DNA of 64,000 nt from Candidatus Latescibacterota bacterium (lineage in GTDB: Bacteria > JAAXHH01). The number at the start of each line of letters is the position of its first letter. The stretch's first letter is position 1. Where the stretch lies: contig JAJEHX010000005.1 in the NCBI GenBank assembly GCA_022823465.1, positions 1 to 64,000 on the forward strand. Direction: 5' to 3'. This document shows positions 2,904 to 12,773 of this stretch, in pieces. Under the pieces are notes generated by a model that saw only the letters and a list, made by a program, of their open reading frames with translations, had not been told where the DNA came from and ran no database searches. The position numbers and the translations under genes are program-made.

Positions 2904-2988
2904 CAACGGCCAGATTCCTGTTTTAAGCTCACGAGATCAGCCGATCCGGTGACGATCAATACCGGACCGGCTGCGGGTTCATTTGCAT

Positions 2989-4818
2989 ATGACGGCTCCC
3001 CATCATTCTCCTTCCAGACTCTGGCCCTACCCGGTTGTTCAAGCTGAAATCGAACATGAAGCCCTGAACCTGTTCCAGGGGTATGGATCCGGCCTGGCCG
3101 GGGCCGTGGCGGATGTCCGCCGTTATGGATCCTCCAATGATCCTTCATCCTTCGATTTGAATGATGCCCGGGACGTGCTGGCAAGGAGCTACGGTTTTCC
3201 TGGCTGGGCACAGGTGGAACGATACTTCCAAACGGTAGAACACCTTTCTCGCAGTCCCAACGTGGAGTCGGCGTCCCCGGAACGGAATGACGCAGAGGGA
3301 CGGACCGGTGATTTCCTTCGTCTCGCCTGCCTGACCCAGGGTACCCAGGATCATCCATCGAGATGGGCCAGGGCAAGGAGCATGCTGGATGCCCATCCGG
3401 AACTCTCGCGGGTGAGTATATACGCTGCCGCCGTGGCCGGCGACGTTTCTGCCTTAGGCACTTTTCTGAAAGCAGAACCTGAGCTGGCGAAGACCCCGGG
3501 CGGACCTCATGGCTGGGAACCCCTGCTTTACGTGGCGTTCTCGCGTCTGGATCCTGGACCCCAGGGGCATACGGCCGTAGAGGTAACCCGGTTGTTGCTT
3601 GCCCATGGCGCCGACCCGAACGCGGGCTACCTATGGGCCGGGTTCCCCTGTCCCTACACCGTCCTTACCGGCGTATTCGGCGAAGGGGAAAACGGTCCCG
3701 CCAGATGTCCGCCACACCGGGATTGCTATGAGCTGGCCGGGATCCTGATCGAGGCCGGCGCCGATCCGAACGACGCGCAGACGCTCTACAACCGGATGTT
3801 CAGCCGCGACGACGGACACCTGCGGTTCCTGTTCGCGCGTGGACTGGGAAAGGAAGGGAACCGGCCCTGGCACCGGCTGCTGGGCGAGCAGTCCCGCGGC
3901 TGGGTGGCCAGTCCAGGCGACATGCTGGCCTATCAACTGCAGTGGGCCGCCCGATGGAACTACCCCGATCGGGTCCGGTTACTGATCGAAAACGGGGCCG
4001 ACGCAAACCGGCCATCCAACCGGCCCGCCGCACAGACGCCCTACGGGGAAGCCATCTTTCACGGGAACGAGGCCATTGCCGAGTACCTGGCGGCTTGCGG
4101 CGCGGAGACCTCTCCGCTGGACGACCTGGACCGGTTTGCGGGTGCGTGCATCAATGGAGACGTGGATCGTGCCCGCGCGTTGCTCGCACGCGATCCGTCA
4201 TTGATCGAAAAACCTGGAGAACGCGGCAAGGCGCTCATGGAGAACGCTGTAGGATCGGACAACCGGGACGCTGTCCGGCTGATGGCCGGATTGGGCTTCG
4301 ACGTGAACGCCTTCGGCATGCACGATGCGGCCCGCTACGGCCACCTGGAAATGATCAAGCTGCTGGTCGAACTTGGGGCCGACACAGCTTTGAAGGACTC
4401 GAGTCACGCCATCAGTGCCCTGGGCTACGCCAGCCACTACCAGCAGGACCACGTGATTGAGTATCTGGCTCAGTTTGCCGGAATCCACCGGGCCGTGCAG
4501 TCAGATTTGCTGGACCGCGTTGGGGAACTGCTGAAAGGTGACCCCGGCTGCGTCTGTGAACGGGACGACGCGGGGAACACGCCGCTGCACTGTCTCGACG
4601 TAGACAACCGGATGGAAGATACGGAGGAGATACTCCACCTGCTCGTTACGCACGGCGCCGCCGTCAATGCCAGGAACAAAGAAGGCCTGACGCCGCTCGA
4701 CCGGCTGGAGCGTCTTCCCGGTTTCAGTCGAAGAGACGATCTGACGGAACGGCTGCGCGGTTACGGGGCCGTGGAATCAGACGCCGCCGACGAGTCGAAG
4801 GACCACCCGGCGTCCTGA
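2989..4818 (+). CDS. Long ankyrin-repeat protein
   Basis: About 609 residues from the ATG at 2989; a TTG two codons upstream (2983) is a possible alternative and neither has a clear Shine-Dalgarno. The N-terminus carries a divergent form of the cluster's module (DARDVLARSYGFPGWAQVERY). Many ankyrin repeats follow, such as EVTRLLLAHGADPNAGY, LLIENGADANR, DAARYGHLEMIKLLVELGAD and a C-terminal LLVTHGAAVNARNKEGLTPL. Likely a cytoplasmic protein-binding scaffold. It is followed by a degenerate 20-22 bp repeat that starts before the stop codon, then by a convergent minus-strand unit. Confidence 0.85.
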   Translation: MTAPHHSPSRLWPYPVVQAEIEHEALNLFQGYGSGLAGAVADVRRYGSSNDPSSFDLNDARDVLARSYGFPGWAQVERYFQTVEHLSRSPNVESASPERNDAEGRTGDFLRLACLTQGTQDHPSRWARARSMLDAHPELSRVSIYAAAVAGDVSALGTFLKAEPELAKTPGGPHGWEPLLYVAFSRLDPGPQGHTAVEVTRLLLAHGADPNAGYLWAGFPCPYTVLTGVFGEGENGPARCPPHRDCYELAGILIEAGADPNDAQTLYNRMFSRDDGHLRFLFARGLGKEGNRPWHRLLGEQSRGWVASPGDMLAYQLQWAARWNYPDRVRLLIENGADANRPSNRPAAQTPYGEAIFHGNEAIAEYLAACGAETSPLDDLDRFAGACINGDVDRARALLARDPSLIEKPGERGKALMENAVGSDNRDAVRLMAGLGFDVNAFGMHDAARYGHLEMIKLLVELGADTALKDSSHAISALGYASHYQQDHVIEYLAQFAGIHRAVQSDLLDRVGELLKGDPGCVCERDDAGNTPLHCLDVDNRMEDTEEILHLLVTHGAAVNARNKEGLTPLDRLERLPGFSRRDDLTERLRGYGAVESDAADESKDHPAS

Positions 4819-6875: not shown

Positions 6876-8396
6876 ATGCCGTCCCTGCCATCTCATCCCG
6901 ATTTACGCCATCTCAAGTTGCAGGCGAAGACGCTTTTGAAGTCCGCGCGGCGCGGCGAAGAGCAGGCCGTCGACAGAATCCGTTCGGCCGCCGGAGCGCG
7001 TCGCGAGCGCGTCGTGCTGTCGGACGCCTATCATGCCATCGCAAGGGAATACGGGTTCAGGTCCTGGTCCCATCTCAAGATCCACCTGGAAATCGCCTCC
7101 AAGAATCTGGAAGAAAAGCTGGCGACGTTTCTGTCATCGGCCTGGCTGTGGGGCGACCGTCAAAGAGCCGAAACCCTGCTCGCATCTGCTCCGGAACTCT
7201 CCAAAGGCAACATCTACGCAGCCTGCGCCGCCGGAGACGTGGATGCCGTTACACGCATCCTGGAGACTGATCCCGCCGCGGCCACGACGAAGGGCGGTCC
7301 GAAGGACTGGCCTCCGATCCTCTATGCGACGTGGTCCTGCTTCCTCGCGGAGCGCGCCGACGCCATGGTCCGCGTCCTGGAATTGCTGCTGCGACACGGC
7401 GCCGACCCCGACAGCTACTGGGTGAACGAGTCCGACTGGAAGGAGTCGGCGCTCTACGGATGCGTGGAAAACAACTGCGTGCCGGTGGCCCGGGTACTGG
7501 TGGACGCGGGCGCCAATCCCAACGACAACGAATCCCTTTACCACGCCTGCGAGAAGTTCAATCTCGAACTGCTCGACGTCGTAGCGGTGAATGGATTGGA
7601 CGCGGAGACGGTTTCCTACTGCATCAAGCATGTCATGGATATGAACTGGACGGAGGGGATCCTGTGGTTCCTCGGCCAGGGTGCAGATCCCAACGCCGTC
7701 CATCCCGCCGCCGACGAAACGTCCCTTCACTGGGCGGTAAAGAGAAACTGCTCGGCCGAAGTGATCGTCGCGCTGCTCGATGCTGAGGCGGATCCCAACG
7801 CCCGCACGTCCACCGGGAAGAGTACAGCACTGGGAATCATCGGATGGACCCCGCTCGACTTCGCCCTCCGGCTAGGCCGCGGGGAAATCGCGGCGCTCCT
7901 CCGGCGGCATGGCGCCGTGCCGTCCCCCCAGTCCGAATACGATCGATTCATAGTCGCCTGCGCCAATACGGACCTGGACATCGTTGAGAAGCTGAAAGGC
8001 CGTCGCCTGGCCGACCTGACCGACGATGACCGGACCCTGATCAGCCACGTCGCCCAGGTGGACAACTGGGCGGCGGTTCGTCTCATGGCGGAACTGGGCT
8101 GGCCGGTCGATGCCCGGGGATGGATGGAAGCCACGCCTCTCTACTGGGCCCTGTGCAAGGGTCATCCTGAAATGGTCGATTTCCTCCTTCGGCGGGGCGC
8201 CTCCACCGATCCCATTGGCGGATATTTCCAGCATCCGGTACACGCCGTCACTTACTGTCAGTGGAATCGAGACAGGGGAAACTATCCCGCCGCGCTCGAA
8301 TTGATCCTGGAACATGGCGTGGCGATTCCGGACGGGTTCTTCCCCTGCGGCAACACCGCCATGGACGCGGTGCTGTCGCGCTACGTCGAGGACTGA
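6876..8396 (+). CDS. Ankyrin-repeat protein with N-terminal PDLRHLK module
   Basis: 506 residues. Residues about 5-70 hold the module HPDLRHLKLQAKTLLKSARR...AREYGFRSWSHLK, close to that of the gene at 1646. Ankyrin repeats follow: VLELLLRHGADPDSYW, VLVDAGANPNDNESLY, WAVKRNCSAEVIVALLDAEA and HPEMVDFLLRRGAS. The ATG at 6876 has a textbook AAGGAGG at 6865-6871, 4 nt upstream. No secretion signal. Paralogy within the cluster suggests local gene duplication; the binding partner is unknown. Confidence 0.88.
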   Translation: MPSLPSHPDLRHLKLQAKTLLKSARRGEEQAVDRIRSAAGARRERVVLSDAYHAIAREYGFRSWSHLKIHLEIASKNLEEKLATFLSSAWLWGDRQRAETLLASAPELSKGNIYAACAAGDVDAVTRILETDPAAATTKGGPKDWPPILYATWSCFLAERADAMVRVLELLLRHGADPDSYWVNESDWKESALYGCVENNCVPVARVLVDAGANPNDNESLYHACEKFNLELLDVVAVNGLDAETVSYCIKHVMDMNWTEGILWFLGQGADPNAVHPAADETSLHWAVKRNCSAEVIVALLDAEADPNARTSTGKSTALGIIGWTPLDFALRLGRGEIAALLRRHGAVPSPQSEYDRFIVACANTDLDIVEKLKGRRLADLTDDDRTLISHVAQVDNWAAVRLMAELGWPVDARGWMEATPLYWALCKGHPEMVDFLLRRGASTDPIGGYFQHPVHAVTYCQWNRDRGNYPAALELILEHGVAIPDGFFPCGNTAMDAVLSRYVED

Positions 8397-8535: not shown

Positions 8536-8811
8536 ATGGCCCGCATGGTCCACTGCGTCAAGCTCGACGAGGAACTGGAAGGACTGGACTTCGTTCCCTT
8601 TCCAAACGAGCTTGGTCAGCGTATCTATGACAACATATCCAAACAGGCCTGGCAGATGTGGATCAGCTATTCGGTCATGGTCATCAACGAGTACCGCCTG
8701 AATCTCGCCACGACGGAGGGCCAGGAGGTCTACGACCGGCACCTGGAGGAGTTCTTCTTCGGTGAAGGCGCCGAAATGCCGCCGGGATACCGGCCCCCTC
8801 AGTCCAAGTAA
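8536..8811 (+). CDS. yggX: Fe(2+)-trafficking / oxidative-damage protection protein (YggX)
   Basis: 91 residues, the normal family length. The conserved Cys is at position 7 (MVHCVKL), as in E. coli YggX, followed by LEGLDFVPFPNELGQRIYDNIS, the QAWQMWISYSVMVINEYRLN block and a C-terminal EEFFFGEGAE segment. In enterobacteria the protein protects Fe-S clusters and influences labile iron. A gene for a radical SAM (Fe-S) protein begins 33 nt downstream on the same strand, a fitting neighbour though possibly chance. A good promoter lies upstream. Confidence 0.93.
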   Translation: MARMVHCVKLDEELEGLDFVPFPNELGQRIYDNISKQAWQMWISYSVMVINEYRLNLATTEGQEVYDRHLEEFFFGEGAEMPPGYRPPQSK

Positions 8812-8844: not shown

Positions 8845-10344
8845 ATGAAACGCGACGATGACATCCTGCTCATTTCCTGCTATGAACTGGGCCATCAGCC
8901 CTTCAGCCTGGCTTCTCCCGCTGCCCGCCTGAAGTCCGACGGATTCGACGTCTCCGTCGTCGACGCCGCGATAGAACCCATTCCGGAGGATATCGTCCGG
9001 CGTGCCGGGTTCATCGGCATCTCGGTGCCCATGCATACGGCCATGCGGGTCGGGATGGACCTGTCGCGCCGCATCCGGAAGCTCAATCCCGGCGCCCATC
9101 TCTGTTTCTACGGACTCTACGCCACCCTGAACGCCGACTATCTCCTGTCCCATGGAGCCGACTCGGTGATCGGCGGCGAGTTTGAACAACCGCTCTGCGA
9201 CCTGGTAGACAGGCTATGCAGGGGCGGAACTTCCGAGGCGGCCGGAACCTCTGAGGCGGTCGGAACCTCTGCAACGGGCGGAACTACTGCAACGGGCGGA
9301 ACTACTACAACGGCCGTCGAAGCGGACTCCGGCCCGAATCTCTCCCGCCAGGCCTGGAAAATCCCGGACCGAAGCAGCTTGCCCGCTTTGAAGCGGTACG
9401 CCCAGCTGGACACGGGGGTGGAACTGCTTCCCGCCGGTTACACCGAAACCACGCGCGGTTGCCTGCATACCTGTCTGCATTGCCCGATCACGCCGGTGTA
9501 CAACGGCCGGTTCTTCGCCGTGCCCGCCGACGTGGTCCTTGCCGACGTGGACCAGCAGGTGCGCATAGGGGCGCGCCATATCACCTTCGGGGACCCGGAT
9601 TTCCTGAACGGTCCCACGCACGTTTTGCGCATCCTGCGAAGGATGAGCGACGCCCACCCCGGACTGACCTTCGATTTCACCACCAAGATCGAACACATCC
9701 TGCAGCATGCGTCCTTTTTCCCAGAAGCCAGGGACCTGGGCGGCCTCTTCGTCGTATCGGCCGTCGAATCGGTCAGCAACCTGGTGCTGAAGCGCCTCCG
9801 GAAAGGGCATGACCGGGACGATATCGTCCGGGCCCTCGCCGTTCTGCGGGACGCGGACCTGCCCATGCGGCCCTCGCTGGTGGCCTTCACGCCCTGGACA
9901 ACGCTGGACGACTACCTGGATCTGCTGGATTTCGTCGAGGTCCACGACCTGGTCGAGCACATTGATCCGGTACAGTATACCATCCGGCTGCTCGTACCGC
10001 CCGGGTCGGCCTTGCTGGACGAAGCGGATACCCGGTCATGGATAGGCGAGTTGGATGAAGACGGGTTCACCTACGCGTGGGATCATGACGATGCGCGCAT
10101 GGACCGCCTGCACCGGCGGGTTTCCCGTCTCGTGGAGGAGGCCGACGCATCGGGAGAACAAAGGGACAACCGGAGTCTGTTCCACCGGATCAGGCGCCTG
10201 GCGGCAGAAACGGCAGATGTGGAGGCGCCTGCAGAGCGGCCGATACAAGACCTTTCGCCTGAACGGCGGCGGGTCCCCAGGCTGACCGAGGCCTGGTTCT
10301 GCTGAGCGGAGCCCACGGCGAGCCGGAAAGGCTCGTTTATCTGA
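8845..10344 (+). CDS. CUAEP-tail radical SAM selenoprotein (UGA read as Sec)
   Basis: Residues 1-125 look like a B12-binding-type Rossmann domain without an evident cobalamin DxHxxG motif. Residues 127-156 are a repetitive linker. Then comes a radical SAM core with C206-x3-C210-x2-C213 (RGCLHTCLHCP) to bind a 4Fe-4S cluster, followed by HITFGDPDFLNGP and DFTTKIEHIL. Conventional translation stops at TGA 10303-10305 after TEAWFC. Reading that UGA as selenocysteine gives C486-U487-A-E-P plus ten residues to the TGA at 10342. C-U-A-E-P is the defining tail of the CUAEP/CCAEP-tail radical SAM (seleno)protein family, and a bacterial SECIS-like hairpin follows the UGA. Total 499 residues. The family's substrate is unknown. 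Confidence 0.85.
9223..9312 (+). repeat. In-frame 18-bp tandem repeat, five copies, in radical SAM gene
   Basis: Five consecutive 18-bp units, such as GGCGGAACTACTGCAACG (9277-9294), encode the hexapeptides GGTSEA, AGTSEA, VGTSAT, GGTTAT and GGTTTT (residues 127-156). They form a flexible linker between the N-terminal domain and the radical SAM core. The last two units differ from each other at one base, which suggests recent expansion. Confidence 0.95.
10303..10335 (+). promoter_or_regulatory. Candidate bacterial SECIS element after in-frame UGA
   Basis: TGA at 10303-10305, a 13-nt spacer, then a perfect 6-bp stem CGAGCC (10319-10324) / GGCTCG (10330-10335) closing the loop GGAAA. The apical loop starts 20 nt after the UGA and begins with GG. 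Both match the general bacterial SECIS description: loop roughly 16-37 nt from the UGA, with G in its first two positions. The short TTTAT after the stem also allows a weak terminator. Confidence 0.75.
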
Positions 10345-10375
10345 TCCGGAATTGCTTTAGTCTGGAAGAAAATAA

Positions 10376-11575
10376 TCAGGAAGCGTAACCGTCCTGGGCG
10401 GGGCCGCAGTGCTGCGGCCGGGACGGTGCCCGGTACTGCACGCGGTGATCGGGCGTTTCGATGCGGATGCCGCCCTGCTGCTCCGACGTGAGGCAATGGT
10501 CGAGGATGCCGCAGACGGTCAGCGTCCGTTCTACCGGGATCGGTGAAACGCCGGTATCGAACATCTCATCGATCCTCGAAACCAGGCAGGCTGAATAGGT
10601 GACCGGCGGGGTGGGCGGCAGGAAGAACTGGGTAGACTGGAGATCCGGTTCGTCCTTCAGACGGGCGGCGAAACAGTAATCGCCGATGGCGCCGTTGAGC
10701 ATGAGCAGCGTGGTTTTCAAACCGTCCACGTGTTCGATGAAGTAGGCGGCCGGCTCCTCGGCCAGACGGCGCAGTTCCCCCGTCCCCAACAGGTCCTGCG
10801 TACGGCCGTCTTCTTCGGGCAGCCCCTTTGGACTGTCGCAGCGGGACAGCGCGGATTCCAACAGTTCCTTCGAATAACGCCCCTCCTCGCCGGCTTCCCA
10901 GACCTCGTCACCCACGATCATCTGCACCGCCCTGACCCCCGTCTCCCCGCCCCTGCGCCGCTCTATCATGCACTGCATGGCCTCGAGGGCGTGGTAATCC
11001 ATGGCGTCCGAACCGCCGACGCCCACCATCAGCGCTTCCTCGATTTCACATTCCAGCGGGAGTTCCAGGTCGGGCAGCCGCCACGTGACCGGCAAACTCG
11101 ATCCGGCAAGCACAGGAAAGCCGAGCCGCTTCGAATCGGCCACCATTTCCAGCCCGTTCGCGAAGCTGTAGGACAGGTTCTTGTCGTTGTAGATCGGCAC
11201 GGAGCGGCCGTCCTGCTCGAACACCTCGACGCAGGCTTTGAACATCTCGTAACGCGGATACTGTTTCTGGCCTTTCTCGTTGTCGGGATAGTCGCCGTGC
11301 TCGCAGATGATGAGGATGCCGTCCACCGCAAGAGTATCTCCTCCGCATCGCAGCGCTTCGGCGATGGTGGGATAGACCTCGAAACCGAATTCCCGGGCAC
11401 GGTCGATGCTCTGGTCGCCTTCGGGCCGCTGGTCGACGTAGAGCGATACGACCTCCGCGTCTGGACGGTTCCAGCGGCCGGACCGCGGGTAGCCCACGAG
11501 GAACCGGTCCGCGAAATGCTGGGTGTGGGAGAGATAGGTGTAGATGGAACTGATGACGGCGAGCCGTTTGGGCAT
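10376..11575 (-). CDS. Uncharacterised protein, paralogue of upstream neighbour
   Basis: 399 residues from the ATG at 11575, which follows a GGAG site; an upstream extension to 11629 is not conserved in the paralogue. It shares with the next gene SHTQHFADRFLVGY, VVSLYVDQ, YPTIAEAL, VDGILIICEHGDYP, EKGQKQYPRYEMF, a PIYNDKNLS segment and AGSSLPVTWRLP. The N-terminus (KRLAVISSIYTYLSH) has the feel of a Rossmann beta-alpha unit, and the EHG step recalls the place of EKP in Gfo/Idh/MocA enzymes, but no nucleotide-binding glycine motif is evident. Four nucleotides separate it from the upstream paralogue, so the two are probably co-translated. Family not recognised. Confidence 0.75.
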   Translation of the reverse strand: MPKRLAVISSIYTYLSHTQHFADRFLVGYPRSGRWNRPDAEVVSLYVDQRPEGDQSIDRAREFGFEVYPTIAEALRCGGDTLAVDGILIICEHGDYPDNEKGQKQYPRYEMFKACVEVFEQDGRSVPIYNDKNLSYSFANGLEMVADSKRLGFPVLAGSSLPVTWRLPDLELPLECEIEEALMVGVGGSDAMDYHALEAMQCMIERRRGGETGVRAVQMIVGDEVWEAGEEGRYSKELLESALSRCDSPKGLPEEDGRTQDLLGTGELRRLAEEPAAYFIEHVDGLKTTLLMLNGAIGDYCFAARLKDEPDLQSTQFFLPPTPPVTYSACLVSRIDEMFDTGVSPIPVERTLTVCGILDHCLTSEQQGGIRIETPDHRVQYRAPSRPQHCGPAQDGYAS

Positions 11576-11579
11576 GGTT

Positions 11580-12773
11580 TCAATATCTCCAGAACGTGGA
11601 TTGCTCGGGCGCCGGATAGACGACGTCAAGGTGGGGCGTCTCGAGGCGCACCTGTCCCTCGTGCAGGCTGTCGACCCCTGCCGCGGTCAGACCGGTCGTC
11701 AGCAGGGTACGTTCGACCGGGTACGCGGCCTCGCCGGTGAGAAACATCTGTTCCACGTTGTTGACCTGCGGCGAGAAGAAGTTGGCCAGCGACGTGCGCG
11801 CGGGCGGCATGGGCAGATACATCTGCGTCGACAGCGGCTCGCTCTGCCCCGTCAGGCGCGCAGCGAAGTTGAAGTCCTCCACCAGCCCGTTGAAGAGGAT
11901 CATGGTGCATTTGAGGCCGTCGCGGTGCTCGTAGGTGTAGGCCACGGGGTCTTCCACCATCCGCTTCATCTCATTGATGGTGGGAAAGATGTTATTGAAC
12001 CCATCGCGGGAAGGCTTCAACGTGTGACTGCGGCACAGGGCCGCTTCGAACAGCTCCCGGGACCATTCGCCTTCGTGCCAGGCCTCCCAGAAGGCTTCGC
12101 CCCGGCGGGCGTGAAGCCAGGAGACACCCGCCTCGCCGCCGACGCGCCGTTCCACCATGCACTGCAGGGTCTCCAGGCCGTGGAAGTCGTAGCTGTCGAC
12201 CCCGCCGTAGCACACGCACACGGCCTCTTCCACCCCGGCGTGCAGCGGCATGTCGACGGAGGGCGTCCGCCAGGTGACCGGCAGGCTCGAACCCGCCATG
12301 AAGGCGAACCCCAGCCGCTGCGACGTGTCGTACATCTCTTTGGCCCAGTCCCAGTTCCATGACAGGTGCTTGTCGTTGAAAATGGGAGCGGAACGGCCAC
12401 TGGCCTCGTAGACCTCCACGATCTCGCGGAACAGTTCGTAGCGCGGATAGAGCCGCTGCCCTTTTTCGTTGGTCGGATACTCGCCGTGCTCGCCCACCAG
12501 GAGGACGCCGTCCACCTGCAGCGAATCCCCGCCCAGGGTGAGGGCGTCGGCGACCGTGGGGTATATCTTCATCCCGGGGAACCGTGCGGCCCGGTCCCTG
12601 CTGAGATCGTTCTCGCGCACCTGGTCCACGTACAGGGAAACCAGGTCCATGGGCGGGTGGTGGTGCCGTCCGGCCCAGCCGTACCCCTCCAGGAAGCGGT
12701 CCACGATATGCTGGGTGTGGGCGTAGGGGTGGTAGATGGTCGTGATCGCGGCGATCTTCGGTCGGTTGGGCAT
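11580..12773 (-). CDS. Uncharacterised protein, first of a tandem paralogous pair
   Basis: 397 residues. It begins RPKIAAITTIYHPYAHTQH and contains DRFLEGYGWAG, MDLVSLYVDQ, VDGVLLVGEHGEYPTNEKGQ, LYPRYELF, APIFNDKHLSWNW, AGSSLPVTWRTPS and LETLQCMVERRVGGEAGVSW. Conserved acidic, His and Arg residues lie in the same order as in the downstream paralogue, and similarity runs the whole length, so the pair arose by tandem duplication. No signal peptide or membrane segment. A divergent oxidoreductase-like fold is a guess from the motif layout. No function can be assigned. Confidence 0.75.
   Translation of the reverse strand: MPNRPKIAAITTIYHPYAHTQHIVDRFLEGYGWAGRHHHPPMDLVSLYVDQVRENDLSRDRAARFPGMKIYPTVADALTLGGDSLQVDGVLLVGEHGEYPTNEKGQRLYPRYELFREIVEVYEASGRSAPIFNDKHLSWNWDWAKEMYDTSQRLGFAFMAGSSLPVTWRTPSVDMPLHAGVEEAVCVCYGGVDSYDFHGLETLQCMVERRVGGEAGVSWLHARRGEAFWEAWHEGEWSRELFEAALCRSHTLKPSRDGFNNIFPTINEMKRMVEDPVAYTYEHRDGLKCTMILFNGLVEDFNFAARLTGQSEPLSTQMYLPMPPARTSLANFFSPQVNNVEQMFLTGEAAYPVERTLLTTGLTAAGVDSLHEGQVRLETPHLDVVYPAPEQSTFWRY

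Follow-up and report, generated by a model that had tools for sequence, protein, structure and literature searches.

Selenocysteine is delivered at UGA codons in bacteria by SelB, which, with GTP and Sec-tRNA, binds a hairpin (reviewed in PMC13188914). The model of this bacterial SECIS (bSECIS) element describes an apical loop of 3-9 nt on a stem of 4-16 bp, with a G in loop position 1 or 2, a loop that lies 16-37 nt from the UGA, and an energy of at most -7.5 kcal/mol (PMC13188914). Among protein families, NCBIfam already names the selenoprotein family NF040546 (rSAM_CUAEP), the "CUAEP/CCAEP-tail radical SAM (seleno)protein"; our literature search found no paper naming CUAEP or CCAEP. The nearest other named family is ArsL (NF040542) of arsinothricin biosynthesis, for which transfer of a 3-amino-3-carboxypropyl group to arsenite has been proposed (PMC8552651). 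It is well supported that the hairpin described here obeys the known bSECIS model and belongs to a gene of an already named selenoprotein family.

The DNA analyzed, referred to as the window, is a 64,000-nucleotide part of one contig (C1) of a 3.86-Mb draft genome of a Candidatus Latescibacterota bacterium. A reading frame that opens at 8845 on the forward strand runs for 486 codons to a UGA at 10303-10305 and, when that codon is read through, continues to 10344. The features of this gene are as follows.

8845 to 10344, forward strand: predicted complete selenoprotein frame, 499 residues with UGA487 as Sec, with matches to NF040546, PF02310 and PF04055
8869 to 9204, forward strand: B12-binding domain, residues 9-120 (PF02310, 39.4 bits)
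9460 to 9483, forward strand: CxxxCxxC of the radical-SAM [4Fe-4S] cluster (C206, C210 and C213), invariant in 37 homologues
10303 to 10305, forward strand: in-frame UGA, codon 487, very probably read as selenocysteine, with an aligned Cys in the Cys homologues
10306 to 10341, forward strand: coding tail after Sec, AEPTASRKGSFI, with 4 variable sites in 11 congeneric genomes, all synonymous
10342 to 10344, forward strand: the true stop, TGA in this genome as in five congeners; five others have TAA

The read-through product, ordered as B12-binding domain, radical-SAM domain and CUAEP tail, scores 684.9 bits against NF040546 (cut-off 500) and covers positions 1-465 of the 468 in the profile, a full-length match that includes the tail. 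The only difference from the family that we found is an insertion, derived from an 18-bp repeat, in the interdomain linker. The match to ArsL scores 315.5 bits over residues 7-432 and ends before the tail; membership in ArsL was rejected, as this score is under the cut-off of 450. The C-terminal motif WFC[U/C]AEP is present as EAWFCUAEPT, in which a TGC codon at 10300-10302 stands directly 5' of the TGA, and C486, C/U487, E489 and P490 are invariant across the 37 homologues. Standard annotation would end the gene 13 codons early, and this invariant part of the protein would be lost. An AlphaFold model (37 homologues) has a mean pLDDT of 89, with about 65-76 in the tail, and is similar to cobalamin/radical-SAM enzymes, among them AprD4, OxsB and TsrM. 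The tandem copies of the 18-bp repeat occupy window positions 9225-9313, in the linker that joins the B12 domain to the radical-SAM domain; the length of this linker is variable among congeners, and the model is disordered at residues 132-159.

Coding conservation continues past the UGA and ends at the second stop, after which 33 nt vary at every position in the 11 congeneric genomes. The genome also encodes the means to decode the codon, as selA, selB, selC and selD are all present. SelA scores 491.8 bits and SelD 254 bits; SelB scores 350 bits and has a C-terminal SelB-wing_3 domain; and selC, the tRNA-Sec with anticodon UCA (tca), adjoins selB on contig C31.

Directly 3' of the in-frame UGA is a stem-loop with the following parts.

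10306 to 10318, forward strand: spacer from the UGA to the 6-bp helix, GCGGAGCCCACGG, 13 nt, coding for AEPT and part of A
10317 to 10337, forward strand: predicted SECIS hairpin with 8 bp, of which the basal two are G-U, and the core helix at 10319-10324/10330-10335
10325 to 10329, forward strand: apical loop GGAAA, its first two positions G, as in bSECIS elements of the SelB-contact type

The first-pass annotation of this DNA had drawn attention to a SECIS-like hairpin after the UGA, and the structure is where it was placed, at 10319-10335, starting 13 nt downstream. It was described as a perfect 6-bp G+C stem. The six pairs and the GGAAA loop stand; the composition does not, as the arms CGAGCC (10319-10324) and GGCTCG (10330-10335) form five G-C pairs and one A-U pair, and further G-U pairs (10318-10336 and 10317-10337) extend the stem to 8 bp. 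The loop was said to start with GG 20 nt from the UGA. The gap between the UGA and the loop is 19 nt, so the GG is indeed at nt 20-21 and the correction is small; the spacing lies within the 16-37 nt of the model, as had been claimed. The hairpin energy is -12.7 kcal/mol. That the hairpin would be part of the coding sequence is borne out by the tail, whose variation within the genus is only synonymous. In its location 3' of the UGA and inside the coding region, and in its spacing, stem and energy, the element shows no departure from the bSECIS consensus (PMC13188914); its sequence is particular to it, as bSECIS sequences usually are.

Taken by itself, one such hairpin is suggestive, at about the 1% level. 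Of the 1649 TGA triplets in the window, 16 are followed by an equally stable hairpin whose loop begins with G at a permitted distance, as are 2 of the 72 TGAs that terminate ORFs of at least 150 aa. Synonymous recodings of the tail peptide were equally stable by chance in 96 of 20,000 cases. A 61-nt stretch folded alone gave a z of -1.12, which is not exceptional for its composition, and single-sequence folding, not significant alone, was kept out of the evidence. A search of the whole window with Rfam at gathering thresholds returned no match, and no match to a bSECIS family. The case for the hairpin becomes decisive because of the comparative evidence.

Full-family matches were found in 13 of the 16 genomes of the class, each with exactly one in-frame TGA, and scanning 84,980 species genomes added 80 loci. 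Readable tails came from 37 loci with UGA and 53 with Cys; some of the UGA loci are one gene fetched by two routes, and our counts are therefore based on distinct tails. The UGA genes belong to the lineage of the window, to Poribacteria (whose tails include ITEAWFC variants) and to one Planctomycetota MAG, and the Cys genes to Nitrospirota, Actinomycetota and Chloroflexota, plus single MAGs from further phyla. At least three phylum-level lineages are represented among the 26 distinct UGA tails, which align without gaps and have 82.7% of their cells paired in the 6-bp helix. Compensatory changes in homologues, which the first-pass annotation had named as a check, are abundant: changes on both sides that keep the pair occur at five of the six pairs, in 24 cells (shuffle mean 9.9, with 0 of 500 shuffles as high), although covariation is partly inherited within clades and these cells are thus not independent events. 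The covariation score is 0.475 for the Sec tails, against 0.232 for shuffles, none of 500 being as high, and no more than 0.139 in slid versions of the helix. The shuffles ignore relatedness; the contrast between Sec and Cys tails and the slid controls are independent of that. RNAalifold independently recovered a 4-bp core from the Sec tails and no consensus structure from the aligned Cys tails, of which the 36 distinct ones are paired at chance level (42.6% vs 40.7% shuffled).

Of the 26 distinct Sec tails, 25 have an in-register 4-bp core whose loop opens with two Gs, whereas only 2 of 51 distinct Cys tails have it. Among the homologues examined we found no CUAEP tail that lacks the hairpin, a finding that would have counted against the SECIS reading; the one irregular case is locus L135, whose core contains a single G-G mismatch. 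The hairpins of Poribacteria are shorter, and for some of them the local fold is weak, at -4 to -5 kcal/mol. Occurring in the same register in at least three phylum-level lineages and absent in Cys homologues, this is one of the cleaner comparative cases of a bacterial SECIS.

Agreement with the model, compensatory change and restriction to Sec homologues together leave us almost certain that the hairpin is a bacterial SECIS and that Sec is inserted at UGA 10303-10305 of this CUAEP-tail B12/radical-SAM gene. SelB-GTP carrying Sec-tRNA(Sec) with anticodon UCA would bind the hairpin through its C-terminal winged-helix domain, contact the G that opens the loop, and deliver Sec to the ribosome at the UGA. 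The ribosome would then read through the hairpin, add AEPTASRKGSFI, and stop at 10342. Because translation would pass through the hairpin, the same 36 nt would act both as an RNA signal and as a conserved C-terminal tail. We strongly infer SelB binding and Sec insertion at UGA codon 487 here.

Other explanations of the UGA and its hairpin fare poorly. The UGA at 10303 could be an ordinary stop, in which case WFC would be the C-terminus and the hairpin would have arisen by chance in G+C-rich DNA. The modest z-score of the local fold and the hairpins of similar stability after about 1% of window TGA triplets (16/1649) are in line with such a chance. Protein sequence is nevertheless conserved after the UGA, where CUAEP aligns with CCAEP and the tail varies within the genus at synonymous sites only; the helix is kept by compensatory changes in Sec homologues only; and the genome has the full Sec machinery. 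We consider an ordinary stop very improbable. A role for the hairpin in ending transcription of the gene, as an intrinsic terminator, is even harder to credit. The hairpin is G+C-rich and is followed by UUUA, as a terminator might be, but it sits within conserved coding sequence, no terminator-like site was called in 10200-10500, and congeners and other phyla have UUCAUC, AAUACA and similar sequences, with no U run, 3' of the hairpin.

The stem might also be a mere by-product of the amino-acid and codon constraint on the tail, whose peptide is conserved within each clade. Pairing is kept, however, even though the peptides differ between clades (TASRKGSF, TTNRQGSF, TEGQFGLL, TKDQLGPL and TEGQFAPI), and at columns 20/30, for example, G-C gives way to A-U through a Ser-to-Asn change together with GGC-to-GGT. 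In Cys homologues that share the motif the in-register stem is missing, and only 0.5% of synonymous recodings are equally stable, all of which makes a by-product highly implausible. The frame is open through the UGA, as it would also be if a code change or suppressor let the codon be read as another amino acid, with the hairpin irrelevant. This we judge to have next to no likelihood, as the stop codon at 10342 is itself UGA (five congeners have TAA there), the alignment has Cys throughout opposite the in-frame UGA, and the genome encodes tRNA-Sec (anticodon UCA) along with SelA, SelB and SelD.

The enzyme family is widespread in uncultured bacteria. The distribution of Sec and Cys on the protein tree needs three changes; a single origin of the Sec/Cys state may still apply on this tree, as no strongly supported branches are against it. 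The CUAEP gene is absent from 3 of the 16 class genomes (G008, G013 and G014). Two of these, G008 and G013, keep SelB above its cut-off, so loss or absence of the gene does not depend on the Sec trait, and the SelB kept in G008 suggests that other Sec genes are found there. In the genome of the window itself, a UGSC-family frame with an in-frame TGA (locus L141, G000:C38:45647-46072, reverse strand) is a candidate second selenoprotein. Like the CUAEP gene, it has a bSECIS-like hairpin after the UGA, with the loop G 19 nt downstream; the protein is unrelated and scores 107.7 bits, short of the 125 that the curated UGSC model (NF041046) requires. The Fdh-alpha of the same genome was considered as a further Sec case and rejected, as it has no in-frame UGA.

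The Cys-Sec pair probably works at or near the active site. It is tempting to speculate that the C-terminal pair of this family of ArsL relatives is a catalytic or ligand element, for cobalt, an Fe-S cluster or a metalloid substrate, in an undescribed formation of C-heteroatom bonds, and that Sec then took the place of Cys repeatedly in different bacterial phyla, with its SECIS evolving in that tail, but we regard this as an unlikely guess. As the Sec sits in the invariant tail, a biochemist should express the enzyme with a Sec system.

The gene neighborhood was surveyed across clades, and no partner is common to all. In the lineage of the window, the conserved neighbor is the following gene.

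8536 to 8811, forward strand: YggX-family Fe(2+)-trafficking/oxidative damage protection protein, 34 bp upstream of the selenoprotein gene

Elsewhere, DUF169 is a neighbor in Nitrospirota and Poribacteria, an ATP-grasp protein resembling L-amino-acid ligases is a neighbor in Nitrospirota, Actinomycetota and Chloroflexota, and NifU and GcvT-like neighbors occur at single loci. Many CCAEP loci adjoin an ATP-grasp gene with an L-amino-acid ligase C-terminal domain (for example, L062:1888-3159). The ATP-grasp and DUF169 neighbors of these other clades hint at an amino-acid or peptide-like product, and they are not shared by the lineage of the window. No ars genes were recognized among the neighbor genes examined. 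Two similar-looking tandem genes on the reverse strand, at 10376-11629 and 11580-12773, converge on the selenoprotein gene; they have no Pfam or NCBIfam match and are conserved in congeners. Upstream there are two related ORFs on the forward strand, at 2983-4818 and 6876-8393, the second of which encodes an ankyrin-repeat protein.
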